In this document: one piece after another, positions 2,287-52,146 of the stretch
Position numbering within the stretch: position 1 is the first letter of the stretch
Layout of the letters: each line of letters starts with the position of its first letter
Assembly: GCF_015711605.1 (NCBI RefSeq)
Contig: NZ_JABTEZ010000001.1
Location: 462,001-526,000 of the forward strand
Length of the DNA: 64,000 bases
From: Planomonospora sp. ID67723
GTDB lineage: Bacteria; Actinomycetota; Actinomycetes; Streptosporangiales; Streptosporangiaceae
Direction of reading: 5' to 3'
Notes under the pieces: generated by a model
What the model was told of the DNA's origin: nothing
Seen by the model: the letters and a program-made list of their open reading frames with translations, nothing else
Databases searched by the model: none
Translations under genes and position numbers: made by a program

Positions 2287-2359
2287 GGGGCGTTAGCTCA
2301 ATGGTTAGAGCTGCGGACTTTTAATCCGTAGGTTCTGGGTTCGAGTCCCAGGCGCCCTA
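2287..2359 (+). tRNA. tRNA-Lys (anticodon TTT)
   Basis: Complete cloverleaf: acceptor GGGGCGT pairs with GCGCCCT (G1:U72 wobble), D-arm GCTC/GAGC, anticodon stem GCGGA/TCCGT around loop CTTTTAA (anticodon TTT), T-arm CTGGG-TTCGAGT-CCCAG, discriminator A. CCA is encoded at 2360-2362. Its 3' half from 2317/2318 is the sequence repeated at 6162, 9369, 23036 and 52061, so it is the likely attachment site of the island. Confidence 0.97.
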
Positions 2360-2370
2360 CCACTCATACC

Positions 2371-2402
2371 CCGTCTGACCTGCGATTTCTCGGCTCAGAC
2401 GG
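2371..2402 (+). terminator. tRNA-Lys terminator hairpin
   Basis: Perfect 8-bp stem CCGTCTGA/TCAGACGG directly after the tRNA. The hairpin and the following 15 bp closely resemble 52115-52160 at the far end of the island. The IS-A copy starts at 2416, where this resemblance stops. Confidence 0.7.
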
Positions 2403-2415
2403 GCTCTGCGCGAGC

Positions 2416-3649
2416 CTGCGCCTGCCGAAAATTCCATCCGTGCAGGTCAAGCGGCATGTGAGTATTCGTGGAGGACTCCGCCGAGCCGGTCCCGTCTGCG
2501 TACGCTCAGCTCGGCGATGCGCGTCGGATCCGTGATCGGGTCCGGGACGGCGCGTAGCGGAGCCGCTTGATCCAGTGCCTGATGGGCACGGTGCCGGTTG
2601 TAGAAGCGCTCGTACTCTCGTAGAGCGTGGCGCAAGTGGCGCTCATTCCATACCAGGCAGCGGTCGAGCAGCTCGCGGCGGCATGACTGCACCCACCGCT
2701 CCATGACTGCGTTCATCCGCGGGACTCGGACACCGGTGAGCACGGTCCGGATCCCGGCCTCGGCCAAGATCTCGTCCATGAGGGCGAGGAACTTCCCGTC
2801 CCGGTCCCGGATCAGATAGCGCGCCCGGCAGCCGGCCTCTTCCAGGTCCATCACGAGGTTCTTCATCGCCTGGACGACTCAGGCCGCGGTCGGATGGGCG
2901 GTGGTGCCCAGCACGCGGACGCGCCGGCTGGCGTGCTCGATGACGGCCAGGATGTACTGGCGCTGCCCCGTGAGGGTGACGGTCTCAATGAAGTCGCAGG
3001 CCAGCAGCGCCTCGGCTTGGGAGCGCAGGAAGTCGGCCCAGGTGACCGACGCTCGTTCAGGGGACGGATCTATGCCTTCCTGGTTGAGGATCTCCCACAC
3101 GGTGGAGGGTGCGACCGTGATGCCGAGCACGGCCAGCTCGCCGTGGATGCGCCGATACCCCCAGGAGGGGTTTTCCCGGACCAGACGCAGGATGAGAACT
3201 CGGATGGAGCGAACCGTGGGCGGGCGCCCCGACCGCCTGGGCTTACTGATGCGGGCGTGCCGCCGTCTCATCAGATCGCGGTGCCAGTGCAAGACGGTGT
3301 CCGGGCGGACGAGGAGCCGCACCCGGCGCAAGACCTCGCGGGGCAGCGACGCCAGCAGGGCGGCCAGGAAGGCACGGTCCTCGGGGGCGAATCGCACCCT
3401 GGTGTCGGCACCGAGCTGCCGTTCGAGAACGGTGATCTGGTGGCGGAGAGCGAGGATCTCGACGTCCTTGTCCCGATCGCTCATCGGCAGCAGCCGCAGC
3501 GCGGCGAAGGCGTTCGTGACGGCGAGATAGGCCAGGCGAAAGAGCACGGACGATCATCATGCCGCACCCCGAGCAACAGGGAGTCACTCGCGTCAGGAGA
3601 TCCCCAGCAAGCCCATGACCTGGCCGGATGACATTATCGGCAGGCGCAG
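2416..3649 (-). mobile_element. IS-A insertion sequence (rve/DDE type), inactivated
   Basis: About 1.23 kb element. The left end reads CTGCGCCTGCCGAAAATT and the right end, inverted, reads CTGCGCCTGCCGATAAT. It carries one transposase gene interrupted by a stop codon. Single ends or fragments of the same element recur at 5407, 12641, 32553, 42535, 50877, 54480 and 62499. No target duplication is apparent. I call it IS-A because I cannot assign an ISfinder name; the IS3/IS481-like integrase core is clear. Confidence 0.8.
2447..3547 (-). pseudogene. IS-A transposase with in-frame stop
   Basis: Both halves lie in one frame and are separated only by TGA at 2879-2881, after ...TTAHPTAA and before VVQAMKNL. 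Related transposases commonly have Trp there (TGG to TGA). The N-terminal half carries the HTH-like helices (PSWGYRRIHGEL) and the first catalytic Asp (LLACDF); the C-terminal half carries the second Asp (YLIRDRDGKF) and the Glu (MNAVMERWVQSCRRELLDR). Overall about 366 codons, full length for the type, so one substitution apparently killed it. Readthrough of TGA cannot be excluded. Confidence 0.8.
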
Positions 3650-4294
3650 TCACTCGCCCTTCCGAAGTTCCTTCTCCCACACGCCGAAACGCTCCCTGAG
3701 TGCCTCAGCCCCCGCCGCATCGACGCCGTACACGAGAAATTCCACATCGGTACGGCGGCGCACGTACGCCAACATCTCCGCGAACACCTCCTGATCGAAC
3801 CCGGCGTCCCGGCGAGCGGCCAACTCCAGAAGCTGATCGCGCGTGTACCGGCCGGACTCCACAAGCGCGTCCACATCGATGAAGTCACGAGCGAGTGCGC
3901 GGTTGAACAGGGCCTCGGTCTTCCCCGCCGCGACGTCGTCAGGATGGAGGACCGGACCCATCTCCATCCGCACCGGCGGCTGAAAACGCACGTCCGCGAC
4001 GACCTCGACCTTGCATCCCTGATCCGTACCACGCTCAGAGATCCACATTCGGACATAGCGATCGGTACTCTGCAAGGTCTCAGCCTGGTATCCGGCCGCA
4101 CGGTACACCTCGGCCACGTGATCCGCTGCCGCCGGGCAGTCCATGTCCAGCGCGCCGAACAGGTCGACGTCCTCGCTCGGCCGCTCCACGATCCCGTACG
4201 CCTGCACCGCGTACCCACCGGCCAGCGCGAAGCCGTACTGATCGGCGACACTGAGGCCGATCTCGATCAGCCTCCGATGGAAGGGGTCCATCAC
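3650..4294 (-). CDS. AbiEii-like nucleotidyltransferase (putative toxin)
   Basis: 214 residues with the minimal nucleotidyltransferase motif LAGGYAVQAY (GG at 26-27) followed by RPSEDVDLF (S40, D42, D44) and a downstream acidic strand KVEVVADVRF (97-103) supplying the third metal ligand. This is the layout of AbiEii/AbiGii toxins of type IV abortive-infection systems, which modify tRNA acceptor ends or proteins with nucleotides. The GTG start at 4294 overlaps the TGA of the upstream small gene (GTGA); an ATG one codon later is equally possible. The coupled partner is not AbiEi-like, so the pair may be a variant. Stop lies immediately outside the IS-A right end. Confidence 0.72.
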   Translation of the reverse strand: MMDPFHRRLIEIGLSVADQYGFALAGGYAVQAYGIVERPSEDVDLFGALDMDCPAAADHVAEVYRAAGYQAETLQSTDRYVRMWISERGTDQGCKVEVVADVRFQPPVRMEMGPVLHPDDVAAGKTEALFNRALARDFIDVDALVESGRYTRDQLLELAARRDAGFDQEVFAEMLAYVRRRTDVEFLVYGVDAAGAEALRERFGVWEKELRKGE

Positions 4295-4611
4295 GCGGCC
4301 CGGTCACGCAGCCAGGTGAACTGCGACTCCCACAGTCGGCGGACCCGCACCGGCAAGATCAAATGAGGCCAGACACGCGCCAACAGATCGGCGTTCAGGT
4401 ACGCCTTGAGATCCTGCTCTCGGCCTTCCTGGATGACCTGCTCGTACATCACCCGCAGCGCCGCCGGGTCGGACAGGTCGTAGGAGCGCCGCGGACTCCA
4501 GTCCAGCCAGCCGGGCAGCGTGACGATCCCGCTCGCGGGCCCGGTCAGCTCCTCCAGAGCATGGGGAACCGCGTACGGGCGGATGTTTGCGTAGTTCAGT
4601 GCCCTGTCCAT
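4291..4611 (-). CDS. small protein coupled to the AbiEii-like gene (putative antitoxin)
   Basis: 106 residues from the ATG at 4611 (MDRALNYANIRP...). The frame is open further upstream, but that part reads as non-coding arginine-rich sequence and crosses the remnant at 4668-4800. No motif I recognise: it is soluble, with two probable helical segments (about 50-70 and 75-95) and a conserved-looking LTGPASGIVTLPGWLDWSP stretch. It overlaps the nucleotidyltransferase start, so the two should be translated together; I infer a toxin-antitoxin or defence partner role from context only. It lacks the winged-helix N-terminus of AbiEi antitoxins. Confidence 0.6.
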   Translation of the reverse strand: MDRALNYANIRPYAVPHALEELTGPASGIVTLPGWLDWSPRRSYDLSDPAALRVMYEQVIQEGREQDLKAYLNADLLARVWPHLILPVRVRRLWESQFTWLRDRAA

Positions 4612-4667
4612 GTCTCCAGTGTGACATTTCCGCCAGAGCCGCACCCTTCGATGATGCAACCTAACAC

Positions 4668-4800
4668 CGCATCGGACAAACCGTTGGACACGGTGACCGG
4701 CGCCGGCGACCGCACCGTGAAGTCCACCCGAACCACCCTGGATACGAACCATGGTCAAGGGGCCCATGTTTGCTCGGTGGTTGCTCGCGTGCCGCGGTAC
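4668..4800 (+). pseudogene. trace of XRE gene 3' end plus right-end repeat
   Basis: 4668-4735 still translates as LDTVTGAGDRTVK, aligning with the LDVVADFGDHTVK C-terminus of the XRE protein at 8866-9198. It is followed at 4750-4800 by the same repeat found after the other two XRE copies (6006, 9216). No att core follows, because transposase DNA begins near 4830. This is a third, oldest copy of the module. Confidence 0.6.
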
Positions 4801-4843
4801 GATGCGGCACGCGGCACCTGTGGGTGCCAGAAACTCGGCCGCC

Positions 4844-5405
4844 CTATGCGACCTGCGCATACTCGTGGATCAGTCCGCCGAGACGATCACGACGGATGGC
4901 CTCGATATCGGCCTCGACCGGGTCGGGCAGGGCTCGAAGGGGAGCGGCTTGGCCCAGGGATCGGTGCGGGCGGTGCTCGTTGAAGTGAGCCTCGTACGTG
5001 ACCAGCACCCGTCGCAGGTGACGGGCGTTGACGATCAGCATCCGGTCAAGGAGTTCCCGGCGCAGCCCACTGATCCACCGCTCGATGTAGGCGTTCGCCT
5101 GCGGAGCCCGAGGCGGCGTCTTCAAAATCCGGATGCCCGCGTCGGTGAACACCTCATCGAACCCGGTGGTGAACTTCGCATCCCGATCCCGGATGAGGAA
5201 CCGGAAGTCTCCGGCCCGATCTCCCAGCTCGATCATCAGGTTCCGGGCCTGCTGAGCGACCCACTCCCCGGTGGGATGTTCGGTGACGCCGAGCAGGTGC
5301 ACTCTCCGGGTGGAGAGCTCCATGACGACCAGGCCGTACAGGCGTTTGAGCAGCACGGTGTCGCAGTGGAAGAAGTCACACGCCAGGATCCCGGAGGCTT
5401 GGACA
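4844..5405 (-). pseudogene. transposase C-terminal fragment (third IS type)
   Basis: Reverse-strand fragment with an intact DDE triad: [21 protein letters not shown] and NAYIERWISGLRRELLDR, ending in IRRDRLGGLIHEYAQVA. The N-terminal HTH half is missing because the gene is cut at about 5406 by an IS-A end. It is related to but distinct from IS-A and IS-B transposases. A short decayed piece of the same type lies at 22033-22085. Confidence 0.75.
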
Positions 5406-5406
5406 C

Positions 5407-5466
5407 TGCGCCTGCCGAAAATTACGTCCGTGCAGTTCAAGCGGCATGTGAGTACTCGTGGAGGAT
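5407..5466 (-). mobile_element. IS-A left-end fragment
   Basis: 60 bp matching 2416-2475 (CTGCGCCTGCCGAAAATTAC onward) and ending where an IS-B end begins at 5467. Only the terminal non-coding part and the last codons of the transposase remain. Confidence 0.7.
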
Positions 5467-5639
5467 CCTGTACCGCTTCAAAATCCATCACGTAGTGCCT
5501 GAGCTGGGCGTTCTCTGGGGCAGCTATGCGGCTCGGTGGTACTCGTTGATCAGTCCGCCGAGCACCCTCCGGCGTTCGATCCGGCCTTCCAGCGGTATGG
5601 CGGTCCGCTCGTCGTGGTCGGGTGGTCGCTGCGCGCGGG
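5467..5639 (-). mobile_element. IS-B left-end fragment interrupting the three-gene module
   Basis: Begins with CCTGTACCGCTTCAAAA and encodes the last ~38 residues of IS-B transposase ([13 protein letters not shown]...[10 protein letters not shown]), with the stop at 5524-5526. Homology to 6498-6664 stops at 5639 inside a copy of the 255-aa gene, so this IS insertion plus deletion removed the first genes of that module. Confidence 0.75.
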
Positions 5640-5690
5640 GAGGAACGCTACGCCGCATACCGCGTCGAGAAGGAGAAGGAGGAACGCTGA
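5640..5690 (+). pseudogene. 3' tail of a second copy of the 255-aa gene
   Basis: Reads RYAAYRVEKEKEER followed by TGA that overlaps the next ATG (TGATG), exactly as LLEER-TGATG at 8852-8868. Everything upstream has been replaced by IS-B DNA. Confidence 0.55.
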
Positions 5691-5988
5691 TGAGCGAGTT
5701 CGTGAAGTGGTCCGACACCAAATCCAAGATCCGCGAAATCGATCCCGAGTGGGACTCCCCCGAGCGCGTCGCCGCGCGGGAGACCAGCCGAGAGCAGCTT
5801 AGGGCGGAGCTGCGCGGCGCCCAGCTCGCCGAGATGCGTAACGCCTGGGCATCTCCCAGGCGCGCGTGTCCCAGATCGAGCACGGCCAGATCGGCGGCCT
5901 CGACATCCTGCGTTCTTATGTCGTCGCCCTGGGCGGGACGCTCGACGTGGTGGCCGACTTCGGCGACCACACCGTGAAGGTCGCCTGA
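5690..5988 (+). pseudogene. XRE-family gene, second copy, frameshifted
   Basis: Starts MSEFVKWSDTKSKIREIDPE and is closely similar to the intact gene at 8866-9198. Two lesions: one base is lost near 5840 (CGTAACGCC against CGCAAGCGCC), which shifts the frame, and 33 bp are deleted between two CTCCCAG repeats, removing the turn of the HTH. The old 3' end (GDHTVKVA) survives out of frame up to the TGA at 5986-5988. Confidence 0.8.
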
Positions 5989-6005
5989 ACCAGCTGAGAC
6001 CCGGG

Positions 6006-6056
6006 CATGGTCAAGGACCCATGTTTGCTCGGTGGTTGCTCGCGTGTACCCGGTAC
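6006..6056 (+). repeat. right-end repeat, copy 2
   Basis: About 50-bp repeat containing ATGTTTGCTCGGTGGTTGCT; other copies at 4750-4800 and 9216-9264. It always lies just after the XRE gene and about 105-110 bp before an att core. It probably belongs to the end of the mobile element (integrase or excisionase arm sites are one possibility). Confidence 0.7.
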
Positions 6057-6161
6057 GGCCCGGCACGCGGTGGCATCATCCGGCAGACCGGCGGGGACGC
6101 TGGCGGACAGAACGGCACGAGATGGCATGTCGCGGCACCGGATGGCAGTGAACCCGTAAGC

Positions 6162-6209
6162 TTTTAATCCGTAGGTTCTGGGTTCGAGTCCCAGGCGCCC
6201 TACCACTCG
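6162..6209 (+). repeat. tRNA-Lys 3'-half repeat (att scar)
   Basis: 48 bp identical to 2318-2365, from the anticodon loop through CCA. The 5' half of the tRNA is absent, so it cannot fold as a tRNA. Typical of attR left by a tRNA-targeting integrase. Confidence 0.88.
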
Positions 6210-6214
6210 TGAGC

Positions 6215-6249
6215 AGGAACGTAGGCCCTGACCTGGGCCTTCGTTCCTG
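6215..6249. terminator. hairpin after att scar
   Basis: CAGGAACG-T-AGGCCC pairs with GGGCCT-T-CGTTCCTG. It occupies the position of the tRNA terminator but has unrelated sequence. From 6250 to 6497 I see no gene. Confidence 0.6.
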
Positions 6250-6497
6250 GCCACCTTCTCCGGCACGTGCAGTCGGATGCAGCCGGATGCCACTGCCTGC
6301 CACTGGTCGCGGAACATACGCGGAATGGAACCGCGCCCGTCCGTCCAGGTCAGCACCCGGGTTCCGGGAGCCGCCGAAACGGTTCCGGGAGTGTGAGAGC
6401 CGACGCGACGAAGGACCCCGAGAGCTTCCCGGGTCCTTCGCTGCGTTCCGCCGTCACGGCTGTCATGTCGTGAGCGCTTCCATGATCTGCTTGTTGG

Positions 6498-7697
6498 CCT
6501 GTACCGCTTCAAAATTCATCGCGTAGGGCTTGAGCTGGGAGTTCTCCGGAGCGGCTACGCGGCTCGGTGGTACTCGTTGATCAGCCCGCCGAGCACCCTC
6601 CGGCGTTCGATCCGGCCTTCCAGCGGTACGACGGCCTGCTCGTCGTGGTCGGGTGGCCGCTGCGCGCGGGATTGGTGCGGCCGGTGGCCGTTGTAGTGAT
6701 CGGCATACTCACCGAGCACCGACCGTAGGTGCCGTTCGTTGGAGATCAGCATGCGATCGGTGCACTCGGCCCGTACGGTGCGCACCCACCGCTCGGCATA
6801 GCAGTTGGCCCGCGGCGTACGCGGCGGTGTCTTGACCACCGTCACGCCCGCGTCGGCGAAGATCGCGTCGAAGACAGCGGTGAACTTGGTGTCCCGGTCG
6901 CGGATGAGAAAGCGGAAGGAGCCGATCCGGCCGCCGAGGTCCATGAGCAGGTTGCGGACCTGCTGAGCCGTCCAGGCGCCGGTCGGGTGGGCGGTCACGC
7001 CGAGGATGTGCATACGCCGGGTGGTGACTTCTATGACGAACAGCACGTACAGACGCTTCAAGGAGATCGTGTCGACGTGGAAGAAGTCGACGGCCAGCAG
7101 GCCTTGTGCTTGGGTGCGCAGGAACGTTCGCCAGGAGGTGTCGGCGTCTCGGGGCGCCGGGCCGAAGCGCCGGCGCCGCAGGATCCGGCGTACGGTTGCT
7201 TCGCTCACGCGGTAGCCGAGCCGGGTCAGTTCACCGTGCACCCGGCGATATCCCCAGGACGGGTTCTCCTGCGCCAGGCGCAGCACCAACTCCCGGATCT
7301 CCTTGCTCGTCCTCGGGCGGCCGGAGCGGTGCGGATACCTCCACCGATCTCGGACCAAGCGCAAGTGCCAGGCCCGCAGGGTGCCCGGCGTCACCAGCCG
7401 ATGCGCGCGCAGGGCAGAGGGCAAGAACCGCGCCAGCGCGGCCAGGACCGCTTGATCGACCCAGTCCGGCTTCGGCCGGGCGACCTGACGGCGCAGCACC
7501 GCCACCTCGTGCCGGAGCACCATGATCTCGGCGTTCTTGACCGCATCGCTTCGGCCCAGTAGCGCCAGCCAGCCGAACAACCGAATCATGATCAGATACA
7601 GGAGACGGAGAGACACAAGAACCGATCTTGCCCGTACCGCCGCATCAGGTCGACCTGCAGGCCAAGCACCCTGCGACGACTTTTGAAGCGGTACAGG
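6498..7697 (-). mobile_element. IS-B insertion sequence, complete copy
   Basis: 1200 bp with perfect 17-bp terminal inverted repeats (CCTGTACCGCTTCAAAA at 6498 and its inverse ending 7697) and one full transposase gene. It is the reference copy for the many IS-B derivatives here (5467, 12786, 14747, 24612, 28890, 32640, 35735, 56636, 59082). No target duplication is visible. Confidence 0.88.
6555..7616 (-). CDS. IS-B transposase (rve/DDE integrase core)
   Basis: 353 residues, GTG start at 7616. The N-terminal half has HTH-type helices ([35 protein letters not shown]). The catalytic core has Asp in [11 protein letters not shown], Asp in [10 protein letters not shown] and Glu in [18 protein letters not shown]. 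Ends in [11 protein letters not shown]. It is the only intact transposase I see in the window, so it may act in trans on the deleted IS-B derivatives that keep both ends (35735-35979, 14747-15597). Confidence 0.88.
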
Positions 7698-7773
7698 ATG
7701 GATTTTCGGCCCCCGCAGGAATCGGCACGCGCAACTCGAAATGCCATAAGTCGAAGCCTCGCTACTCAGTGAG

Positions 7774-7785
7774 GTACCTAGGTAC
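7774..7785. promoter_or_regulatory. palindromic operator before the three-gene module
   Basis: Perfect 12-bp palindrome GTACCTAGGTAC, 20 bp before the ATG at 7806 and just upstream of a strong AGGAGG. Position and symmetry fit autoregulation by the RHH-like or XRE protein. Confidence 0.5.
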
Positions 7786-7805
7786 TATGAGCTCAGGAGG
7801 AACCG

Positions 7806-8090
7806 ATGACCATGCCTCACAGCACCAAGCGGCAATCACCGCTGAAAGTCGACCCGGCAACCGATGAACTGATCTCCCAGGGCGCGCACTTCCTCGGGGT
7901 GACCAAGAAGGATCTGGTCGCCGCCGCCGTGCGCGTCTACCTGGAACAGCAGCGTGAACAGGTCCGGCGCGGCATGATCGAGTCGATGAAGGTCCTGGAC
8001 GGTTCTCTGTCCTCCAGCGTGTCCCTGCTCACCGGCCTGTCCCCCGAGCGCATCGACGAACTCGGCGGCACCGGCGACTGGGAGGAGTAG
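7806..8090 (+). CDS. small RHH-like DNA-binding protein, first gene of module
   Basis: 94 residues, ATG preceded by AGGAGG at the usual distance. Residues 12-50 (PLKVDPATDELISQGAHFLGVTKKDLVAAAVRVYL) look like a ribbon-helix-helix fold: a short beta strand followed by two helices, as in CopG/VapB-type antitoxins. The rest is acidic and helical and ends GGTGDWEE. It lies 8 bp before the 255-aa gene and 20 bp after a perfect palindrome. I infer an autoregulatory antitoxin or repressor; the family assignment rests on pattern only. Confidence 0.65.
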   Translation: MTMPHSTKRQSPLKVDPATDELISQGAHFLGVTKKDLVAAAVRVYLEQQREQVRRGMIESMKVLDGSLSSSVSLLTGLSPERIDELGGTGDWEE

Positions 8091-8098
8091 ACAGCGCC

Positions 8099-8866
8099 AT
8101 GTCTCGCGTGCGCCCCACTCTCCGTGTCCTGCGCGATGACCTGAAATTGCCGCTGCCTTCCGCCCGCACTCCCCTGGATGCGATCAGCCATCCCCTGCTG
8201 GACAAGGCCGCCGAGCAGTTCGCCGATTCCGACACCGCGCACGAGCGCATCCGTGCCATCGACGACATGGTCCTGTTCAAGGTGAAGGCGCAACGCTGGC
8301 GCGGTGCCGTCTGGACCGACGGCCCCGACGCAGAGGTCCCCACCTGGTTGGTCGCCGCAGGAGTTCGCGAAGACGGCTCGGGCGACGACTTCTACACCGC
8401 GCTGGAAAGCAGCGGGAAGGCGGCCCGCGCCCGCTACAACAGCGCACACGACCAGCCCTTGACCACCAGCACCTACAGCGGACATCTCCTGCCCGACGAT
8501 GACGACCGCGACCGCTACCGACTCGAAGCGGCCACCCGATTCGTCCTCCGGCTCAACGCCACGATCCGCGACCTGGCATGTGGTTCTCTGCGCGACGGCC
8601 ACGAGCACGCCGTCGACTTCCCCGGCTTCCGCCTCGGCATCCAGATCCGCGCCGACGACGGCAACGAGACCTACGCGGCGATCCGCATCACCGGCTCGGT
8701 CCCGGCCAACCTGACCACGACGATCCTGAACCGGGTGCCCGGCTGCGAACCGGACGGCTGGTTCCCCGAATACGCTTTGCCAGAGCGCCATCTCCTACCC
8801 GCCGAACAAGCCTGGTCCAACATCATGGATCCCAAGGCCGCCGCCGAACTCCTGGAGGAACGCTGA
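8099..8866 (+). CDS. uncharacterised 255-aa protein, second gene of module
   Basis: No family recognised. Soluble, without signal peptide or membrane segment. It begins with a basic segment (MSRVRPTLRVLRDDLKLPLP), then shows VLFKVKAQRWRGAVWTD (about 58-74), an acidic loop DDFYTALESSGKAARARYNSAH (about 95-116), LLPDDDDRDRYRLEA and a last helix PKAAAELLEER. The stop overlaps the XRE start (TGATG), implying coupled translation. Sandwiched between two DNA-binding-type proteins and repeated (decayed) beside another att scar, it is the natural candidate for the effector or toxin of the module. It is not RelE/HigB-like by eye. Confidence 0.7.
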   Translation: MSRVRPTLRVLRDDLKLPLPSARTPLDAISHPLLDKAAEQFADSDTAHERIRAIDDMVLFKVKAQRWRGAVWTDGPDAEVPTWLVAAGVREDGSGDDFYTALESSGKAARARYNSAHDQPLTTSTYSGHLLPDDDDRDRYRLEAATRFVLRLNATIRDLACGSLRDGHEHAVDFPGFRLGIQIRADDGNETYAAIRITGSVPANLTTTILNRVPGCEPDGWFPEYALPERHLLPAEQAWSNIMDPKAAAELLEER

Positions 8867-9198
8867 TGAGCGAGTTCGTGACGTGGTCCGACACCAAGGC
8901 CAAGGTCCGTGAGATCGACCCCGAGTGGGACTTCCCCGAGCGCGTCACCGCACGGGAGGCCAGCCGCGAGCAGCTCCGGGCGGAACTGCGCGGCGCCCAG
9001 CTCGCCGAGATGCGCAAGCGCCTGGGCATCTCCCAGAAGCTCCTGGCCGAACGCATGGGCGTCTCCCAGGCACGCGTGTCCCAGATCGAGCACGGTCAGA
9101 TCGGCGGCCTGGACACCTTGCGTTCCTACGTCGTCGCCTTGGGCGGAACGCTGGACGTGGTGGCCGACTTCGGCGACCACACCGTGAAGGTCGCCTGA
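8866..9198 (+). CDS. XRE-family HTH protein, third gene of module
   Basis: 110 residues. An N-terminal extension (1-40) precedes a clear HTH_3 domain at about 45-95: AEMRKRLGISQKLLAERMGVSQARVSQIEHGQIGG (written here as the recognition block around 48-81). It ends in a strand-rich tail GTLDVVADFGDHTVKVA, a layout shared with HigA-type antitoxins and element regulators. Overlaps the 255-aa gene by one base. Decayed copies at 5690-5988 and 4668-4735 show the module was carried by several related elements. Likely represses its own operon. Confidence 0.82.
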   Translation: MSEFVTWSDTKAKVREIDPEWDFPERVTAREASREQLRAELRGAQLAEMRKRLGISQKLLAERMGVSQARVSQIEHGQIGGLDTLRSYVVALGGTLDVVADFGDHTVKVA

Positions 9199-9215
9199 GC
9201 CAGCCTGAACCCGGG

Positions 9216-9264
9216 CATGGTCAAGGGCCCATGTTTGCTCGGTGGTTGCTCGCCTGTCGCGGTA
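9216..9264 (+). repeat. right-end repeat, copy 3
   Basis: Same repeat as at 4750 and 6006, again following the XRE stop codon. Between it and the att core at 9369 are several TGACA/GACAGG-type short repeats that could be integrase arm sites. Confidence 0.7.
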
Positions 9265-9368
9265 CGGCACGGCACGCAATGACACAGCCCGACAGGACAA
9301 AAAGGACGGCCCTGGACAGGACGTCATCAGGCGGCACGCCGTGACAGTAGGCGTCATTGATCAAATCG

Positions 9369-9413
9369 ACTTTTAATCCGTAGGTTCTGGGTTCGAGTCC
9401 CAGGCGCCCTACC
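9369..9413 (+). repeat. tRNA-Lys 3'-half repeat (att scar)
   Basis: 45 bp identical to 2317-2361. The 50 bp before it (from about 9320, including TAGGCGTCATTGATCAAATC) closely match 52012-52060 before the 52-kb scar, so the two scars carry the same element end. Confidence 0.88.
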
Positions 9414-9419
9414 TCGCTG

Positions 9420-9466
9420 AACTGGGCAGGCCCCCCAATCTTCATGATCGGAGGGCCTGCCCAGTT
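9420..9466. terminator. hairpin after att scar
   Basis: Perfect 14-bp stem AACTGGGCAGGCCC / GGGCCTGCCCAGTT just after the scar and before the integrase remnant, facing its 3' end. Confidence 0.65.
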
Positions 9467-9502
9467 GCGTTTTCAGTTGCAGTCGTTGCAGTTCCGGGGC
9501 TG

Positions 9503-9826
9503 TCAGGAGTCCCGCAACGCCCGGCCCATCCGCGCCGCCGCCTCACTGGCCAGGGTCTCCGTGATGTGGGTATAGCGCTTGGTCGTGGTCAGCTGAGAGT
9601 GCCCGAGAACGGCTTGAACCACCCGGATATCCACGCGCTGTTCCAGCAGGAGCGTTGCGGCCGTGTGGCGCGCGTCGTGCACCCGGGCGTCCTTGTCGAT
9701 CTCGGCGAGTTCGAGGATCTCTTTCCACTCGTCCCAGTCGTCCCCGGCGTCGATGGGACTGCCGTCCGGCATGCACCATACGAGGTCCCAGTCCTGCCAC
9801 TTGTCCCCGGCCGCTTCGCCGGAGTT
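9503..9826 (-). pseudogene. int: tyrosine integrase, C-terminal remnant
   Basis: About 108 residues ending MGRALRDS. It contains box [14 protein letters not shown] (catalytic H and R), LGHS (second H) and TTTKRYTHI (nucleophilic Tyr), so the C-terminal catalytic part of a phage-type tyrosine recombinase is preserved. The first catalytic Arg and the arm- and core-binding domains are missing; upstream of about 9826 the frame is meaningless. The gene points at the att scar 90 bp away, as integrases of tRNA-integrating elements commonly do. Confidence 0.85.
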
Positions 9827-9854
9827 GGAAGGCGGCCGAAGGCGGCCGTCATCG

Positions 9855-10305
9855 CGCCTACAGCGGCTCGGTGGCGCTGGAGGCCGCCCGCAAGGTCGAC
9901 GATATCGACGCCACGACCGACGACGCCGACCCCGACGATCCCCACTGGGCGGATACGCCCCTCTGGCTGTGTGTGTTCGCACCGTCCGCGGCCGGCGTCG
10001 ATGATCTGGAGATAGAGGCCTGCGCCGGGGCGAGCCTGGCCGCGCTCACCCAAGCACTGCAGCGCCACGACCCCGCCTTGCGCATCCAGGCCCAGCGATT
10101 GGGCCGGGATGCGCAGGTGCGCTGGCGTCCGGCCCTGTGTCCGGCAGTCACCACTTATGCGGTGTCCTTCAGCACCCAGGCCGCGGAACGCGACCGGCAC
10201 CGCATGCCCGTTCACGTCGTGCACTCCACCGGGGACGGCCTGTCGCAGATCCACCCGCCGTTCAGGGTCACCTGCGAGGCGACCAACGTCGAATCCGGGC
10301 TCGAA
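9855..10305 (+). pseudogene. fragment of an unknown gene fused to the integrase remnant
   Basis: Forward frame with normal protein character from [18 protein letters not shown] to VTCEATNVESGLEE (about 150 residues), lacking a start and running into unrelated sequence at the end. Its 5' side abuts the integrase break point, pointing to a deletion that joined the two. No family recognised; it overlaps the 3' end of the next gene by 38 bp. Confidence 0.4.
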
Positions 10306-14102: not shown

Positions 14103-14348
14103 GTGAGCGTGGACCTCGAACACGAGCCCATTCATGACCTCGCCCGCCGGGTCATCCGGTTGGCCGAGGAAACCCAGCACGCCGCTCAAGTGCTCGAACG
14201 CCGTCTGGAAGCGCTGGAACGCCGCAGTGGAACCACCGGCAGAGCCGAACGCATCCTGAGCATCGCCGCCAGCATGCGAGCCCACCTGGGTCAGGACCGG
14301 CTCTCCGTTGACGACCTGTACGACCCGGACACCGGCCTTCCCGCGTGA
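14103..14348 (+). CDS. vapB: VapB-type antitoxin (Rv0623/PSK family)
   Basis: 81 residues from the GTG at 14103, with AAGGAG 11 bp upstream; the frame is open further upstream without a better ribosome site. It has an N-terminal strand (SVDLEHEPIHDLARRVIRLAEET), a basic helical segment and the C-terminal toxin-wrapping tail SVDDLYDPDTGLPA typical of Rv0623-like VapB proteins. The stop overlaps the VapC start (GTGA). Its DNA-binding N-terminus should autoregulate the operon. Confidence 0.82.
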   Translation: MSVDLEHEPIHDLARRVIRLAEETQHAAQVLERRLEALERRSGTTGRAERILSIAASMRAHLGQDRLSVDDLYDPDTGLPA

Positions 14349-14734
14349 TCATCGATTCCAGCGCCGTCATCGCCGTCATCAACGGTGAGCCCGAGGCCGC
14401 CCAATTCGCCCATGCCATCGCCGCGACCGTGTGCCGCATCTCGGCTGTCAACTACGCCGAAGCGGCCATCGTGGCGGACAACCGCGGTGAGGCCATGCGC
14501 AACGCCTTCGACACGCTCGTCAATGAGATGGGCCTCATCATCGAGCCTGTGACGCCCAATCAGGCCAGGATCGCGCGCCGGGCGTACCAGACTTACGGCA
14601 AGGGCAATAATTCCAAGGCCAAACTCAACATGGGCGACTGCTTCGCCTACGCTCTCGCCAAAGACCTCGACCAGCCCTTGCTCTTCAAAGGCGAGGATTT
14701 CCCGCACACCGACATCACTCCCGCACAGCCCTGA
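14345..14734 (+). CDS. vapC: VapC PIN-domain ribonuclease toxin
   Basis: 129 residues; GTG start overlapping vapB by 4 bp. PIN-domain acidic residues are in place: D4 (MIIDSSAV), E39 (NYAEA), D98 (LNMGDCFAYALAK) and D118 (FKGEDFPHTDI). Length is standard. VapC toxins cleave tRNA or rRNA at specific sites until bound by VapB. The operon sits between two similarly oriented IS-B copies that share a frameshift, so it may have travelled or been trapped with them. Confidence 0.92.
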   Translation: MIIDSSAVIAVINGEPEAAQFAHAIAATVCRISAVNYAEAAIVADNRGEAMRNAFDTLVNEMGLIIEPVTPNQARIARRAYQTYGKGNNSKAKLNMGDCFAYALAKDLDQPLLFKGEDFPHTDITPAQP

Positions 14735-15782: not shown

Positions 15783-15895
15783 GGGACGGGTTCCGGTTCA
15801 GGACGACCCTCGGGCGATGCGACCGGCGCCGTGTGCCAGCCGAGCGACTCCGCGCGAGACGGGACGGTCACCCGCAGGACGACCGGATCCGCCGA

Positions 15896-18325: not shown

Positions 18326-19056
18326 TACACCCACGCTCCCAGTCTGGTCATACGCTCGGCCACCCGGTCGGAGGTCGGCGCGGTCATCGCGTCCACGATC
18401 CGGCCGTCGGCCAGGAACAGGACGGTGTCGGCGTAGGAGGCCGCCACCGGGTCGTGGGTGACCATCACCACGGTCTGGCCCATGCCGTCCACCACCTCGC
18501 GGAGCAGCCTCAGCACGTCACGGGCGGTCATCGTGTCGAGCGCGCCGGTGGGCTCGTCGCCGAAGACCACCTCAGGCCGGACCACCAGCGCCCGGGCGAT
18601 GGCCACCCGCTGCTGCTGCCCGCCGGAGAGCTGGGCGGGCCGGTGCCCGGTCCGCCCGTCCAGGCCGACCCGCGAGACGATCTCGCGGAGCCAGGCCCGA
18701 TCCACCCGCTTGCCCGAGAGCCGGAGCGGCAACGTGATGTTCTCGGTCACGGTCAGCGAGGGCACCAGGTTGAACGCCTGGAACACGAATCCGATCCGCT
18801 GCCTGCGCAGCTTCGTCAGCCGCGTCTCGTCCATCCCGGTCAGCTCGGTGCCGCCCAGCCGTACCGAGCCCGAGGACGGTGCGTCCAGCCCGGCCGCGCA
18901 GTGCAGAAACGTGCTCTTCCCCGACCCCGACGGTCCCATCACCGCGGTGAAGCTCCCCTGCGGGATGCCCACCGTCACCTCGCGCAGGGCCGCCACCGCG
19001 CCCTGGCCCATGCCGTACACCTTGCTCACCGCGTCCAAACGCACCACGTCCGTCAT
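18325..19056 (-). CDS. ABC transporter ATP-binding protein (MacB/LolD type)
   Basis: 243 residues, complete: Walker A GPSGSGKST (41-49), Q-loop Q93 in FVFQAFNLVP, signature LSGGQQQR (143-150), Walker B VVFGDEPTG (163-171), H-loop VTHDPV (H201). The Q-loop FNLVPSLTVTEN block is characteristic of the MacB/LolD subclass that drives FtsX-type permeases by mechanotransmission rather than transport through the pore. First gene of a two-gene operon, divergent from the response regulator at 19154. Confidence 0.92.
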   Translation of the reverse strand: MTDVVRLDAVSKVYGMGQGAVAALREVTVGIPQGSFTAVMGPSGSGKSTFLHCAAGLDAPSSGSVRLGGTELTGMDETRLTKLRRQRIGFVFQAFNLVPSLTVTENITLPLRLSGKRVDRAWLREIVSRVGLDGRTGHRPAQLSGGQQQRVAIARALVVRPEVVFGDEPTGALDTMTARDVLRLLREVVDGMGQTVVMVTHDPVAASYADTVLFLADGRIVDAMTAPTSDRVAERMTRLGAWV

Positions 19057-19153
19057 GCCTGCCAGCCTGCTGGCCTGCGGTCCGCCAGGCCAGAGACGTG
19101 ATCACCGACGGACCGTGACATCGTCATGATCCGGGCACTGGTAGACATATCCC

Positions 19154-19762: not shown

Positions 19763-19853
19763 TCGCGCCGCACCCACGCAGCCGGACGGAAGACGGGGAC
19801 CGGGCCGCCCGGGGAGGGACCGCGGCGCCGTGCCGTCCGAGGCGCGGGGAGCC

Positions 19854-21983: not shown

Positions 21984-22032
21984 CTGTGGCAAATTCGTAC
22001 CCCCGAGCATCCGGGGGAACAGCCTAGACGAG

Positions 22033-23082: not shown

Positions 23083-23089
23083 TTCACCT

Positions 23090-23117: not shown

Positions 23118-23220
23118 GATCACGACCTGGGACAGGCCTGGGTCACAGGTGGGTCATGCGCGGCCGGCGCCGGCGACGCCGCGCAGCGCGGCCAACCACC
23201 GCAAGGGGGACAGCGGGTCG

Positions 23221-43065: not shown

Positions 43066-46016
<2,951 letters not shown>

Positions 46017-46063
46017 CGCACCCCGGTCTGGGCGGTCCCTTGAGGACGGCGTTCGTCCATGCC

Positions 46064-46225
46064 TCACGCAGGCTGAAGGAGTCGCCGGACAGGCCGATCG
46101 CCGAGGATGTCGGCGACGTCGCCCCCGTTCCGCTGCGGGCCGGTCTTCTCGCGGATGCTGTTGGGGTTGATGCTGTAGAGGATCGGGCGGCCGGTGGCCG
46201 CCAGGGCGTCGCGCATCTCCGCGTG
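46064..46225 (-). pseudogene. GH27 alpha-galactosidase/arabinopyranosidase remnant
   Basis: Reverse frame AEMRDALAATGRPILYSINP and following NS is the strongly conserved mid-domain block of GH27 enzymes; after DILGD it ends RPVRRLLQPA-stop without the rest of the domain. The start and both flanks are gone. Confidence 0.65.
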
Positions 46226-46230
46226 ACCCG

Positions 46231-46283
46231 GGCGGGCTCGGCCTTCCACCGAGCCCGCCGCGCCGGCCCCGTCCGGGGCCGGC
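46231..46283. terminator. back-to-back terminators between convergent xylan operons
   Basis: Two hairpins: GGCGGGCTCGG/CCGAGCCCGCC (46231-46259) and GCCGGCCCCG/CGGGGCCGGC (46262-46283). Confidence 0.75.
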
Positions 46284-46297
46284 TCCGTGTCACGCCG

Positions 46298-47749
46298 TCA
46301 GCGCTGCAGTGTCAGCAGACCCGGCCGGTAGGGCAGGAGGCCGTAGTCGCCGCCGGAGTTGGGGCTGCGTCCCTGGTAGAGCAACTGCAGATTGCAGGGA
46401 TCGACGGTCATGGTCTGATCGGGGCTGGTGCGGATCAGTTCGCCGTGGCTGATGTCGTTGGTCCAGGTGGCGCCGCTGTTGGCCTTGCCGGCGAAGGGAT
46501 TGCCCTCGGTCGCGGCCTGCGGTGTCCACGAACCGTTCAGGCTGGTGGCCGTGAACGAGCGGAAGTAGCGGCCCTGCGAGCCGATCGCCTCGACGATCAT
46601 GAGATAGCGGTTCTGGCCCTGGAGCTTGTAGACCTGGACGGCTTCGAACAGGTTGTTCGTCGTGTCGCTCATGACCACCGTCGACGCCGTACCGAAACTG
46701 CCCGGGAAGTTCCCGATCGGCATGCTCGCCCGGTAGATCTTGCCGTTGTCCCCGGCGAAGAACAGGTACATGTTCGTGCCGTCACCGATGAGAGCCTGGT
46801 CGATGGGGCCTGTTCCGGAGCCGGTGATGCTTCCGGAGAAGAGCACCTGCTCCGATGACCAGCCGTTCGGGTTGGCGGGGTCGCTCGACGTCCGGTAGGA
46901 GAAGGCGGTCCTCCCCCACTGGTAGGCGAGCACCCAGACGTTCTTCGGGGCGAAGTAGAAGAGCGTGGGCGCGACGGCGGAGAAAGGCATCGTGTTCTGG
47001 CTGGCCGAGGCCATCTCCGACCAGTTGGTGAACAGGCCGAAGTTCATCGAACCCCACCTCGTCCCCGTGTCGTGCGTCGTCGCGTAGACGAGCTGCCTGC
47101 CGTTGTAGGGGGCGACGGTGAAGTCCTTGAGCGAGACCCATCCCGACCTCGGCTGCGCCAGCGGGCCCGTCGACGTCCAGCGGTACGTCGACGGGAGAGC
47201 GCACGTGCCGCCCGGATCGGGGTCGCCGCCGACCTTCACGAGTTGCCACTGCTGGTTGGCGCCGCCCCAGTCGTCGTACTGGACGATGTTGGCGCCGTCG
47301 GCGGTGGAGCCTCCCTGCACCTCCAGGGCCTTGCCGCTGTTGCGGTTGATCAGCCGTACGTGGCCGTCGGCGGAGTCGGCCAGGCGCCACTGCTGGTTGG
47401 CGCCGTTCAGGTCGGCCCACTGGACGATCGAGCCGCCGTTGGCGGTCGAGAAGTTGTAGACGTCCAGCACCTTGCCCGAATGGCGGGACTTGAGCCGGTA
47501 GTGGCCGCCGCCGGAGTCGACGAACTGCCACTGCTGCTGGTTGCCGTTGTTACGGCTCCACTGGGTGATGCGGGCTCCGTCGTTGGTCGCCAGGTTGTAG
47601 ACGTCCAGGGCCTTGCCGCTGTTGCGGTTGACCAGGACGTACCAGGCGCTGGTGTCGACGGTGGCCGCGTTCGCCGGCTGGGCGGCCACGAGCAGGCTCA
47701 CGAGCAGCGTGGCCGCGGTCGTGAGGATGGCCAGGGGTCTGATTCTCAC
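46298..47749 (-). CDS. secreted GH62 alpha-L-arabinofuranosidase with N-terminal CBM13
   Basis: 483 residues; GTG at 47749 chosen for its GGAG 7 bp upstream (ATG at 47765-47767 is also in frame). Signal peptide to about 30, CBM13 beta-trefoil about 31-165 with three QQW repeats, a short GGDPDPGGT linker, then GH62 from [14 protein letters not shown] (catalytic-base Asp in [14 protein letters not shown]) through [13 protein letters not shown] to [16 protein letters not shown]62 enzymes remove arabinose side chains from arabinoxylan. CBM13 DNA is almost identical to that of the next gene. Confidence 0.93.
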
Positions 47750-47863
47750 TTCGTACTCCGATTCCATCAAGGCTTTGTCGCTGTGCCGCCCGCAGCGGGC
47801 CGGCCGGGATGCCTTTCTGTGTTGAGGGGTGTGTTTCGCGCCCTGACCGGGCGACGGATGCGG

Positions 47864-49885
47864 TCAAGGGGTGGTCAGGTCGAAGCGGCGCACGGTCACC
47901 GAGCCGCCGAGAGCCCGGGTGGCGTAGTTGAAGATTCCGAAGCGGTATCCCATGAAGAACTGCCAGGCGTTGTTCAACGTGAAGGCCGGGCCGAGGCTGA
48001 CGAAGTTCGTCCCGTCGGTGCTGTAGGAGAAGCGGGCCTGCCTGCCCGATCCCGGGCGGATGTCGGCGTTGGCCCTGAGCCAGATCCGGCCTCCGGAGAT
48101 GTTCGCGCCCGCCTGTTCGGTGCCGGTGCCTGTGGTCTGCCACGAGCTGTTCATGGTCAGGCCGCTGGTCATCACGACCCGGTTGACGCCGTTGTCGCGT
48201 CTGACGCCGATCCAGGCCGACTGGTCGCGCAGCATCGCCAGCCCGGCGCGGTCGCCGTCGGCCATCTGGGAGTAGTCGAGCTCGATCGTCGCGGTCGACG
48301 ACGGGCCCTGGATGCGGTGGGTCAGGGTGTTGCGGGCGTTGTAGAGGTCACCGGTGACCGTGGCGGTCTGCAGGCGCAGGCCGTCGCCGGTGGAGAAGCG
48401 GCCGGTGTCGGGGTTGTGGTTCCACTCCCACCGGTGACCGAGGCTGCCCGAGGTGAAGGTGTCCGGACCGGTCATCGAGACCACCGTGCGGTTGGTCCGG
48501 ATGTTCGGCCGCGGGTACTTCACGCCCCAGCCTCCGTTCACGGTCTGGACGGTCGGCCAGTCGTCGGTCCAGGTGATCGGGGCGAGTGCCGGGACCCGGC
48601 CTCCGGGGTAGGCGTCGACGAACGACATGTAGTACCAGTCTCCGGCCTGGGTCTGCACGAGCCCGCCCTGATGGGGGACGCCGCCGCCGGAGATCGGGCC
48701 GGGCATGTCGAGCAGGACCCGGCGCATCTCGTACGGGCCCCACGGGGAGGTGGAGCGGAGCACGTACTGGCCGTTGGCCGGGCGAGTGAGCCAGACGTAG
48801 TAGTAGCCGCCCCGCTTGTAGAAGCGGGCGCCCTCCAACGTGCCGACGCTCGAAGGGGTCTGGAACACCTGCTGGGCGCGCACCTGGCTGAGGCCGTCGG
48901 CCGAGAGCTGCGCCACGCTGATGGTGCCGTTGCCGTAGGCGACGTACATGGTGTCGTCGGTGTCGATCAGCAGGCCGGCGTCGTAGTAGCAGTTGTTGAT
49001 CTGCGAGCGCTTGGTCCACGTGCCGTCGACGGCGGAGGCGGTGTAGACGTACGTCCGGTTGAACTCGACGCAGCCGATCCAGTAGTAGGTGCTGTTGCTG
49101 GGCCGGTGGTTCAGGGCCGAGGCCCAGATGCCCTTCACGTACGCCCGGCCGCCGTTGAGGTCGTAGGCGCCCGAGTCGAAGTCGAGCCTCGGGACCGAAT
49201 GCCCGGCGTACTCCCAGTCGACCAGGTTGTAGGAGCGCAGGATCGGCGCGCCCGGCGAGTAGTGCATCGTCGAGGCCGAGTAGTAGTAGGCGTCCCCGAC
49301 CCGGATGATGTCGCCGTCGGCGAAGTCCTGCCAGACGACCGGGTTGGCGTAGGTGTCACCCGGATCGGGGTCGCCGCCGACCTTCACGAGTTGCCACTGC
49401 TGGTTGGCGCCGCCCCAGTCGTCGTACTGGACGATGTTGGCGCCGTCGGCGGTGGAAGCGTTCTGGACCTCCAGGGCCTTGCCGCTGTTGCGGTTGATCA
49501 GGCGGAGGTAGCCGTCGGCGGAGTCGGCCAGGCGCCACTGCTGGTTGGCGCCGTTGTGGTCGGCCCACTGGACGATGGAGCCGCCGTTGGCGGTCGAGAA
49601 GTTGTAGACGTCCAGGACCTTTCCGGAGTGGCGGGACTTGAGCCGGTAGTGGCCGCCGCCGGAGTCGACGAACTGCCACTGCTGCTGGTTGCCGTTGTTA
49701 CGGCTCCACTGGGTGATGCGGGCTCCGTCGGCGGTGGACAGGTTGTAGACGTCCAGGGCCTTGCCGCTGTTGCGGTTGACCAGCACGTACCAGGCGCTGG
49801 TGTCGACCGTGGCGGCCGACGCCTGGGCCGTGAGGAACACGCCCACGAGAAGCAGAGACGAGAAAACCGCGAGCACGGACCTCAC
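47864..49885 (-). CDS. secreted GH43 beta-xylosidase/arabinofuranosidase with CBM13
   Basis: 673 residues, GTG at 49885 with GGAGG. Signal peptide to about 25; CBM13 26-160; GH43 five-bladed propeller about 180-480 with base Asp region QDFADGDIIRVGD, pKa modulator in YDAGLLIDTDD and acid Glu in VGTLEGARFYKRGG; C-terminal concanavalin-like domain about 490-673 (RWEWNHNPDTGRFS...) as in long GH43 xylosidases. The first motif reads FADGD where many family members have PDP, a small deviation. Preceded by a LacI-type operator at 49992-50007. Confidence 0.92.
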   Translation of the reverse strand: MRSVLAVFSSLLLVGVFLTAQASAATVDTSAWYVLVNRNSGKALDVYNLSTADGARITQWSRNNGNQQQWQFVDSGGGHYRLKSRHSGKVLDVYNFSTANGGSIVQWADHNGANQQWRLADSADGYLRLINRNSGKALEVQNASTADGANIVQYDDWGGANQQWQLVKVGGDPDPGDTYANPVVWQDFADGDIIRVGDAYYYSASTMHYSPGAPILRSYNLVDWEYAGHSVPRLDFDSGAYDLNGGRAYVKGIWASALNHRPSNSTYYWIGCVEFNRTYVYTASAVDGTWTKRSQINNCYYDAGLLIDTDDTMYVAYGNGTISVAQLSADGLSQVRAQQVFQTPSSVGTLEGARFYKRGGYYYVWLTRPANGQYVLRSTSPWGPYEMRRVLLDMPGPISGGGVPHQGGLVQTQAGDWYYMSFVDAYPGGRVPALAPITWTDDWPTVQTVNGGWGVKYPRPNIRTNRTVVSMTGPDTFTSGSLGHRWEWNHNPDTGRFSTGDGLRLQTATVTGDLYNARNTLTHRIQGPSSTATIELDYSQMADGDRAGLAMLRDQSAWIGVRRDNGVNRVVMTSGLTMNSSWQTTGTGTEQAGANISGGRIWLRANADIRPGSGRQARFSYSTDGTNFVSLGPAFTLNNAWQFFMGYRFGIFNYATRALGGSVTVRRFDLTTP

Positions 49886-50932: not shown

Positions 50933-51249
50933 CTCGACGCCGATCATGCCGACGATCGATCGCCGATCATCTCTGTGAGCCGTACGAACGGTCTGCGCCA
51001 CCCTGCAACCACCGGGACAAGGGGATGGAAGGCGGCGTGGATCATCGAGCGCGCAGCCGAGAGCGGCGCGAAGTCATGGCTGGCGGGGTGGCGGATCGGC
51101 GACGGGCGGGACGGCGAGGAGGACTTCGAGACCTGCGAGATCACCCGCCGGATTCTGCGGGGGGACGCGATGGATGCGCCCCAGGCCGTCCGCCTGCAAC
51201 GCCCGCCGGCGCCTCCGGCGAAGCCGGAGCGGTTCGTCCTCCCGCCCCG

Positions 51250-51720: not shown

Positions 51721-51940
51721 CGTCGCTCCGGTCCTTCTGCGCGTCGAGCACGGTCTCGGCGAGGTGGACGAAGTCGTCGTTGCGCAGCACCGCGATGCCG
51801 CGTGTTACGTCCGCCAGCAGCAGCAGCGTGTCTCCAGGAACGATCCCGAACATGTCCCGCATGTCCTTCGGGATGACGATCTGGCCGCGATCCCCGACTT
51901 TCGCCGTCCCTGCGAGCTTCCCTGGTGGTGGTGGCGCCAA
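51713..51940 (-). CDS. AbrB/MazE-type (SpoVT-AbrB) DNA-binding protein
   Basis: 75 residues, apparently from a TTG at 51940 (GGAG 5 bp upstream; no ATG or GTG in frame nearby). The swapped-hairpin motif TAKVGDRGQIVIPKDMRDMFGIVPGDTLLLLAD is complete, followed by a short helix. Such proteins are antitoxins or transition-state regulators. The partner is a membrane protein, not a MazF/VapC toxin. An 8-bp inverted repeat in the promoter is a likely autoregulatory site. Confidence 0.8.
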   Translation of the reverse strand: MAPPPPGKLAGTAKVGDRGQIVIPKDMRDMFGIVPGDTLLLLADVTRGIAVLRNDDFVHLAETVLDAQKDRSDDA

Positions 51941-51959
51941 CTCGACTCCATGTGCACTC

Positions 51960-51989
51960 GTTCGTATTTTTCATACTTTTCATACGAAC
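51960..51989. promoter_or_regulatory. AT-rich promoter/operator of the AbrB-type operon
   Basis: GTTCGTAT / ATACGAAC inverted repeat with a central CATAC, in an unusually AT-rich stretch for this genome. Confidence 0.6.
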
Positions 51990-52060
51990 CTACAGTATGA
52001 GCCGAGGGCAGGGTGTCGTCAGGTGGCAGGGCGTGACCGTAGGCGTCATCGATCGAATCG

Positions 52061-52109
52061 ACTTCTCATCCGCAGGTTCCGGGTTCGAGTCCCAGGCGCC
52101 CTCTCACTC
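52061..52109 (+). repeat. diverged tRNA-Lys 3'-half (right-most att scar)
   Basis: ACTTCTCATCCGCAGGTTCC... through CCAGGCGCCCTCTC, about 90 percent like 2317-2365. The 50 bp before it match the left flank of the 9369 scar and the 50 bp after it match the DNA after the intact tRNA. Probable outer border of the island. Confidence 0.8.
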
Positions 52110-52114
52110 ACCCC

Positions 52115-52146
52115 CCGTCCGCCCTTCGGTTTCTCGGACCAGACGG
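52115..52146. terminator. decayed copy of the tRNA-Lys terminator
   Basis: CCGTC...GACGG with the inner stem lost by mutation; flanking bases TTTCTCGG and AGACGGGCTC match 2386-2406. Confidence 0.6.

Follow-up and report, generated by a model that had tools for sequence, protein, structure and literature searches.

Tandem accretion of ICESt1-type elements leaves segments that have no integrase and are kept between attachment (att) sites; such a segment, a cis-mobilizable element (CIME), is mobilized by its neighbor. Here we analyze a comparable locus, the tRNA-Lys(TTT) gene of Planomonospora sp. ID67723 and the array of copies of its 3’ half that lies behind it, in a window of 64,000 bp (C1:462001-526000 of the 8.34-Mb genome, also labelled G000; positions are window coordinates unless a contig is named). 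This locus, too, holds integrase-less segments between att sites, which are at most candidate CIMEs: 2363-9413 has kept its att sites and has no integrase or transfer genes, the first two features of a CIME.

Stacked elements have been described at other RNA genes. In a Streptomyces population, families of actinomycete integrative and conjugative elements (AICEs) with different integrases are stacked at tRNA-Arg (PMC9513070), and the tandem AICEs Fean5518 and Fean5534 of Frankia occupy a tRNA-Lys gene, with excision demonstrated both alone and jointly (PMC3218068). The ssrA islands of Dehalococcoides contain many direct repeats of the 3’ end of the RNA gene within 100 kb, with and without an integration module (PMC3146451). 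The Planomonospora locus resembles the Streptomyces site in its several families at one tRNA, direct repeats, decayed remnants and strain variation, the Frankia pair in tandem integration into an actinobacterial tRNA-Lys gene, and the Dehalococcoides islands in the many 3’-end repeats of one RNA gene, on islands with or without an integration module. It also differs from each of them. The Streptomyces site carries, besides an old remnant, between one and three elements drawn from three families, whereas here there are five core copies (repeats of the tRNA 3’ half) besides the tRNA, four classes of adjoining DNA (arms) with a tentative fifth, and no intact element. Frankia has two elements with closely related integrases, in contrast to the decayed elements of distinct classes found here, and Dehalococcoides relies on one integration system (DsiB, compared with CcrB) at a tmRNA gene rather than on several tyrosine integrases at a tRNA gene. 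The stacking process is already known; it is the variety at this one site that is unusually readable.

We conclude that tRNA-Lys(TTT) is very probably an attB common, among these related genera, to at least five tyrosine-integrase lineages (T0, E2, E3, E4 and E5; these arm-class names, like E6 and E7 below, were coined in this analysis), at which repeated integration built a stack that has since decayed. The gene is the sole tRNA that ARAGORN finds in the window and is 100% identical over 74-79 bp in ten relatives. A BLAST search with 2280-2400 against the window returned four direct copies of the 3’ half (E 2e-14 to 2e-21; next-best match, E 0.24). A preliminary description of the locus had listed these four copies without the 5’ half, and its coordinates prove right within 1-2 bp (Table 1). 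With a longer query the match to copy 4 reaches 52160 (85% over 101 bp, 2316-2416 vs. 52060-52160) and a fifth, degenerate copy appears at 69685, 5.7 kb past the end of the window. ARAGORN calls no tRNA at any of the five copies. Over C1:442-706 kb (window coordinates -20 to 244 kb) the 47-base core occurs at six places only, the tRNA included (BLAST, E ≤ 0.05). Ungapped mismatches over the 44 inner bases number 0, 0, 4 and 6 from the inside to the outside, a divergence that fits an order with the newest element at the tRNA and bears out, on few bases, the earlier proposal that the oldest copies lie farthest away. As in other accretion islands, an intact tRNA gene is followed downstream by several direct repeats of its 3’ end, and the repeats mark where one DNA module gives way to another: the stretches homologous to relatives have their limits at the cores (for example at 6161, 9368, 23035 and 69696), the exception being one shared block that crosses core 1 (5950-6414, in G016).

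The DNA adjoining the tRNA was compared in 20 genomes (the source genome, another from its genus and 18 from the family), and a clear arm class follows the gene in 17 of them. T0 lies directly behind it in seven, namely the source genome, G087, G138, G061, G010, G134 (called from an arm-site pair, see below) and G070 (called from the T0 integrase behind the arm). E2 adjoins the intact tRNA in Planobispora longispora NBRC 13918 (G045), G111 and G141; E3 in Planomonospora sp. ID82291 (G016), G122 and G132; E5 in Planomonospora venezuelensis CECT 3303 (G001); E6 in G100 and G071; and E7 in G006. The DNA after the tRNA in G114, G091 and G026 is weakly T0-like and possibly native flank. Within the window, copies 1, 2, 3 and 4 are followed by E2, E3, E4 and a decayed T0 arm, respectively, and the 69.7-kb copy looks E2-like by eye. 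Relatives also have the arms that follow copies 1-3, placed either at this tRNA or beside a copy of its 3’ half; for example, 23035-23171 matches G001 contig 53 at 92% identity, and an integrase comes next on that contig.

Tyrosine integrases follow the arms of E2 in G045 and G111, of E3 in G016, and of E4 and E5 in G001, as expected from the suggestion in the preliminary description that tyrosine integrases had integrated repeatedly at this tRNA. Pairwise identity among the integrases of the five classes is at most 38% (E4 with T0), with 24-37% in partial alignments for the other class pairs that match at all; the E7 integrase is 44-45% identical to that of T0. The 3’ end of int points toward the tRNA half in E2, E3, E4 and T0, while the E5 int is directed away. 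The elements in G016 (E3) and G045 (E2) are pSAM2-type AICEs, recognized by Int, RepSA-type and FtsK-type proteins between att repeats: both encode Int (below the Pfam cut-off in G045), RepSA, FtsK-type and GntR proteins within 11.8 and 12.4 kb between cores, respectively, and the Xis position in G016 is taken by a helix-turn-helix (HTH) protein. In G016, G045, G111 and G001, the tRNA itself is occupied by an element with a long integrase. The segments of the window island lack the set of Int, Rep and Tra between att repeats, and whole-genome scans returned for C1:464-609 kb (from the tRNA to window coordinate 147 kb) a single integrase match, the stub at C1:471560, with no further Phage_integrase match and no RepSA or FtsK match at all.

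Each copy had also been described as followed by a hairpin of its own. When the 50-57 bases after each half were folded and compared with shuffles, z-scores were -3.2 (2363-2412), -6.5 (6206-6260), -7.0 (9414-9470) and -3.7 (23081-23130), against +0.06 for the fifth region (52106-52156). Four of the five hairpins are thus real and the outermost is decayed. The first four are unlike one another in sequence, and the fifth resembles the first with its pairing lost. The locus suggests that elements re-supply the end of the tRNA together with their own hairpin. The tRNA end as rebuilt by the arm reads ...TACCT with E3 in G016 and G122, ...TACCC with E3 in G132 and ...TACCG with E5 in G001, so that these four genomes no longer encode the final base of CCA at this gene. 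T0 and E2 arms mostly preserve ...TACCA.

In the mechanism that we propose, the attP of an element would consist of the tRNA 3’ half (from the anticodon loop to the acceptor end) with a hairpin behind it, followed in most classes by the 3’ end of int. Recombination in the anticodon-loop part of the tRNA would swap the resident 3’ half for that of the element, hairpin included, so that the old half is displaced outward with everything behind it and the tRNA regains a 3’ end along with the hairpin of the newcomer, which probably serves as terminator for the tRNA and, in the opposite direction, for int. With each further round the stack would grow, its newest element lying next to the tRNA. Here, the stack would then have been degraded by insertion sequences (IS) and deletions until an E3 stub and a tentative E5 relic were left, with AbiEii, HTH and PIN cargo persisting, and would presently be immobile. 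Scars of this kind keep the arm of the displacing element, making class, order and decay readable at one site and comparable across genera.

Several observations weigh against so simple a history. The age order rests on few bases. The preliminary description had proposed looking in relatives for an empty tRNA-Lys site, which would display the ancestral junction; no clear one was recognized in the 20 genomes, of which 17 have a clear arm class after the tRNA and three only weakly T0-like DNA. Units 1 and 2 are composite (E2 left arm plus T0 right arm), and element borders are therefore not one per scar. Integrases adjoin neither copy 4 nor the 69.7-kb copy, and those of E2 score below the Pfam Phage_integrase cut-off (23.9 and 22.0 bits vs. 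27.1). Nor are intact integrases confined to the tRNA end, for G016 retains a long E5-type integrase next to an internal core, 26.7 kb from its tRNA. The E5 relic is called from matches of 192 bp (83%) and 86 bp (77%) and from 32 residues. Also, most of the ~145 kb of variable DNA to the right of the tRNA shows no scar, and accretion thus explains only part of it.

That variable region is larger than had been thought. The island was initially taken to end at 52.1 kb, but a further scar lies at 69.7 kb and backbone collinear with G016 resumes only at ~147.4 kb (~122.7 kb from the G016 tRNA); the island at the tRNA is the inner part of a ~145-kb variable region. Marker DNA at 178.6-183.7 kb was placed relative to the tRNA in five of 12 genomes; of the other seven, six have the marker on another contig and G102 was not read at the tRNA. 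In four genomes the marker shares the strand of the tRNA and lies downstream of it, at a distance of 138.6 kb (G016), 83 kb (G122), 197 kb (G141) or 195 kb (G138); in G134 it is 1.4 Mb from the tRNA and on the other strand. The flank to the right of 52.1 kb was considered as backbone and rejected, as its pair of genes for a major facilitator superfamily (MFS) transporter and an FtrA-like AraC regulator (52176-54474) resides on non-tRNA contigs in relatives. The pair is 94.6% identical in G001 contig 28, 40 kb of which has no other match of at least 200 bp and 75% to C1:442-706 kb of the source genome, and it is 90-95% identical and off the tRNA contig in five of six relatives (draft contigs; none is listed for G016). 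Downstream DNA of G001 contig 32 gave only IS and short or weak matches to C1:442-606 kb.

The T0 class extends well beyond this tRNA. A 195-base T0 arm is matched in 33 of 150 family genomes (E ≤ 0.001), often repeatedly, with some short matches perhaps due to chance. T0 arms also occur after tRNA-Lys(CTT) and tRNA-Met genes and after halves that read like tRNA-Arg(TCT), and two lie within the G045 array. They contain paired sites, TGTTTGCTC-NN-TG(T/G)TTGCTCG. A narrower form of this pattern marks 26 stretches in the genome collection, of which one, in Caballeronia, is probably a chance match. Among 345 genomes of the order, the wider form is matched in 27, with 51 matches in all, and the reversed pattern in none. 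All three matches in the source genome are within the island (4767, 6022 and 9232); these are right-arm pairs, and the window has no left arm-site pair within 3 mismatches. By the definition used here, a T0 element would carry such pairs to the left and right of a tRNA half, together with a cognate integrase. We compared 48 distinct pairs from the loci examined; some come from related genomes, and not all count as independent. A T-loop is downstream in 22, at 157-159 bp (15 pairs), 169 bp (2), 180-181 bp (4) or 50 bp (1), and upstream at 84-94 bp in nine; 17 have no T-loop match in range, partly because of contig ends. The 11-bp steps in spacing suggest that arm and core are held in a constant helical phase. 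An arm-site pair phased to a tRNA half is also a compact motif for finding related elements even where no integrase remains.

The T0 integrase (G138 type) has matches in 43 of the 150 family genomes (E ≤ 1e-60). For co-location, 41 of the 62 loci listed were used; a T0 arm lies within 10 kb at 13 of these, and all 13 have their nearest arm on the side and strand that were predicted, although one of them (G010 C16) has a second arm on the opposite side, which counts against the scheme. In the source genome, the protein nearest the T0 integrase is 37% identical (query residues 271-454, E 5.7e-32; 28 of 28 candidates scored), and T0-type units thus have no close cognate integrase there. This absence is limited to the source genome and does not extend to the clade, since distant relatives of the enzyme are present in G045 C70 (47-61% in longer pieces) and G132 C45 (46-66%). 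Relics of T0 integrases adjoin T0 arms in G045 and G087. Ten genes near T0 arms elsewhere encode IS proteins (2), PhyH, an APH family protein, an acyl-CoA thioesterase, a glyoxalase, an AraC regulator, a PIN-domain protein and two products without a match. On a contig of a metagenome-assembled genome (JAOPYO010000470.1, our locus L148), two T0 right-arm/core units 2.5 kb apart enclose glyoxalase and AraC genes, and the integrase scan gave no match in that contig.

The likeness between 2363-2416 and 52106-52173 is best read as two arms of one T0 element family. The preliminary description had noted that the outermost copy and its terminator resemble the DNA behind the tRNA; this likeness holds at 85%, and the question is whether T0 is simply the native flank of tRNA-Lys, with 2363-2416 as the original terminator and the 52.1-kb copy as a second or displaced native flank. 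T0 or T0-like DNA after this tRNA in 10 of 20 genomes (three of them weakly alike) speaks for such a flank, as does the 85% likeness itself, but a native flank does not account for T0 arms at tRNA-Lys(CTT), tRNA-Met and tRNA-Arg(TCT)-like halves, twice within the G045 array, and with a T0 integrase on the predicted side in all co-located cases. We regard a native flank as improbable; a T0 element may, at some time, have captured one. It is far less credible still that the copies are tandem tRNA pseudogenes from local duplication, unrelated to mobile elements, the alternative raised at the outset. Their common orientation and the retention of only the 3’ half could be so explained, whereas different DNA follows the copies, the arms among it stand beside integrases in relatives, and the copies begin near the anticodon loop, as an integrase crossover predicts.

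Decay of autonomous elements, which we favor, also has to be set against the idea that the inter-core segments are passengers, cassettes without an integrase of their own that a T0 integrase moves in trans. The right ends at 4767, 6022 and 9232 retain arm-site pairs, the spacing of arm and T-loop recurs over many genomes, the nearest protein to the T0 integrase in the source genome is only 37% identical, and AbiEii is common to relatives at nearly constant identity, all of which would suit passengers. The integrase relics beside T0 arms in G045 and G087 point instead to decay, and the loss of int is explicable by insertion sequences; we consider passengers at this locus rather unlikely. A broader proposal, which we put forward as doubtful, is that T0 comprises small actinobacterial cassettes, often lacking an integrase, which insert one behind another at tRNA genes, are moved in trans by the T0 integrase via arm-site pairs phased in 11-bp steps to the tRNA half, and carry toxin-antitoxin, abi, PIN and other cargo. 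If this is true, the tRNA gene would serve as an anchor, as in a cassette array. Of the features described, the arm architecture of T0 has the best claim to being new. Among the matches listed, the open-licence PMC literature holds no account of this locus or of phased T0 arms.

Table 1. Features of the tRNA-Lys(TTT) island in the window (window coordinates).
Feature	Position	Strand	Remarks
tRNA-Lys(TTT), docking site	2287-2362	+	ARAGORN
T0 left arm at tRNA	2363-2416	+	hairpin 2370-2403; homology with relatives ends at 2416, then IS DNA
IS fragments (rve_3 / HTH transposase pieces)	2417-3647	-	
AbiEii-like nucleotidyltransferase, putative toxin	3650-4291	-	also in G001, G045, G016
Gene overlapping AbiEii gene, putative partner	4291-4611	-	longer frame 4291-4860 without family match
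T0 right-arm site pair, no core behind	4767-4787	+	shared IS sequence starts at 4819
Relic of HTH antitoxin-like gene	5866-5988	+	like 8866-9198
T0 right-arm site pair	6022-6042	+	159 bp before T-loop of core 1
Core copy 1	6161-6208	+	48/48 identical
E2 left arm	6206-6414	+	hairpin 6214-6249; also after intact tRNA in G045, G111, G141
Insertion sequence	6498-7697	-	transposase nearest IS481, 127 bits, below NCBIfam cut-off of 224
Putative toxin-antitoxin module	7806-9198	+	7806-8090, 8099-8866, HTH gene 8866-9198
T0 right-arm site pair	9232-9252	+	158 bp before T-loop of core 2
Core copy 2	9368-9413	+	46/46 identical
E3 left arm	9414-9502	+	hairpin 9415-9469; also after tRNA in G016, G122, G132
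E3 tyrosine integrase, C-terminal stub	9503-10042	-	3’ end toward core copy 2
Small gene and PIN-domain gene	14103-14734	+	VapBC-like by arrangement
Core copy 3	23036-23082	+	43/47 identical; 4/44 inner bases changed
E4 left arm	23081-23171	+	hairpin 23089-23118
Tentative E5 relic	50945-51219	+	like left end of E5 element at G001 tRNA; no core found here
Core copy 4	52060-52104	+	6/44 inner bases changed; BLAST match 52060-52144, 71/85
Decayed T0 left arm	52106-52173	+	fold z +0.06

PADLOC and NCBIfam give the toxin-antitoxin-like cargo weak names at best. The AbiEii pair has 90.3, 90.9 and 90.0% DNA identity to its counterparts in G001, G016 and G045, respectively, while the DNA to the left of the tRNA has 89-92, 81-84 and 81-88%. 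The pair is off the species tree, a pattern that would be expected from horizontal movement. The order AbiEii, core, E2 arm and toxin-antitoxin genes is also found in G016, 31-38 kb from its tRNA.

Other modules lie farther out. An ABC transporter and two-component module at 15835-22037 is 96% identical to G045, where a core with an E4-like arm lies ~70 bp ahead of its start; in the window, no core was found in front of the module. Xylan-degrading enzymes of families GH10, GH62 and GH43, each with ricin-B-type lectin domains, are encoded at 43183-49885.

Elsewhere in the source genome, an 89% copy of the tRNA-Lys(TTT) 3’ half is present on another contig (C6:422201-422244), with no tRNA in its locus and flanks that, judged by eye, are like no arm class. 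Two more tRNA-like 3’ halves occur 4 kb apart at C2:449295 and C2:453221, with no tRNA detected in their loci, and possibly represent another accretion site. RepSA, FtsK and integrase matches cluster at C1:727-732, 918-923, 1521-1525 and 1599-1603 kb; these four clusters may be complete AICE-like elements.

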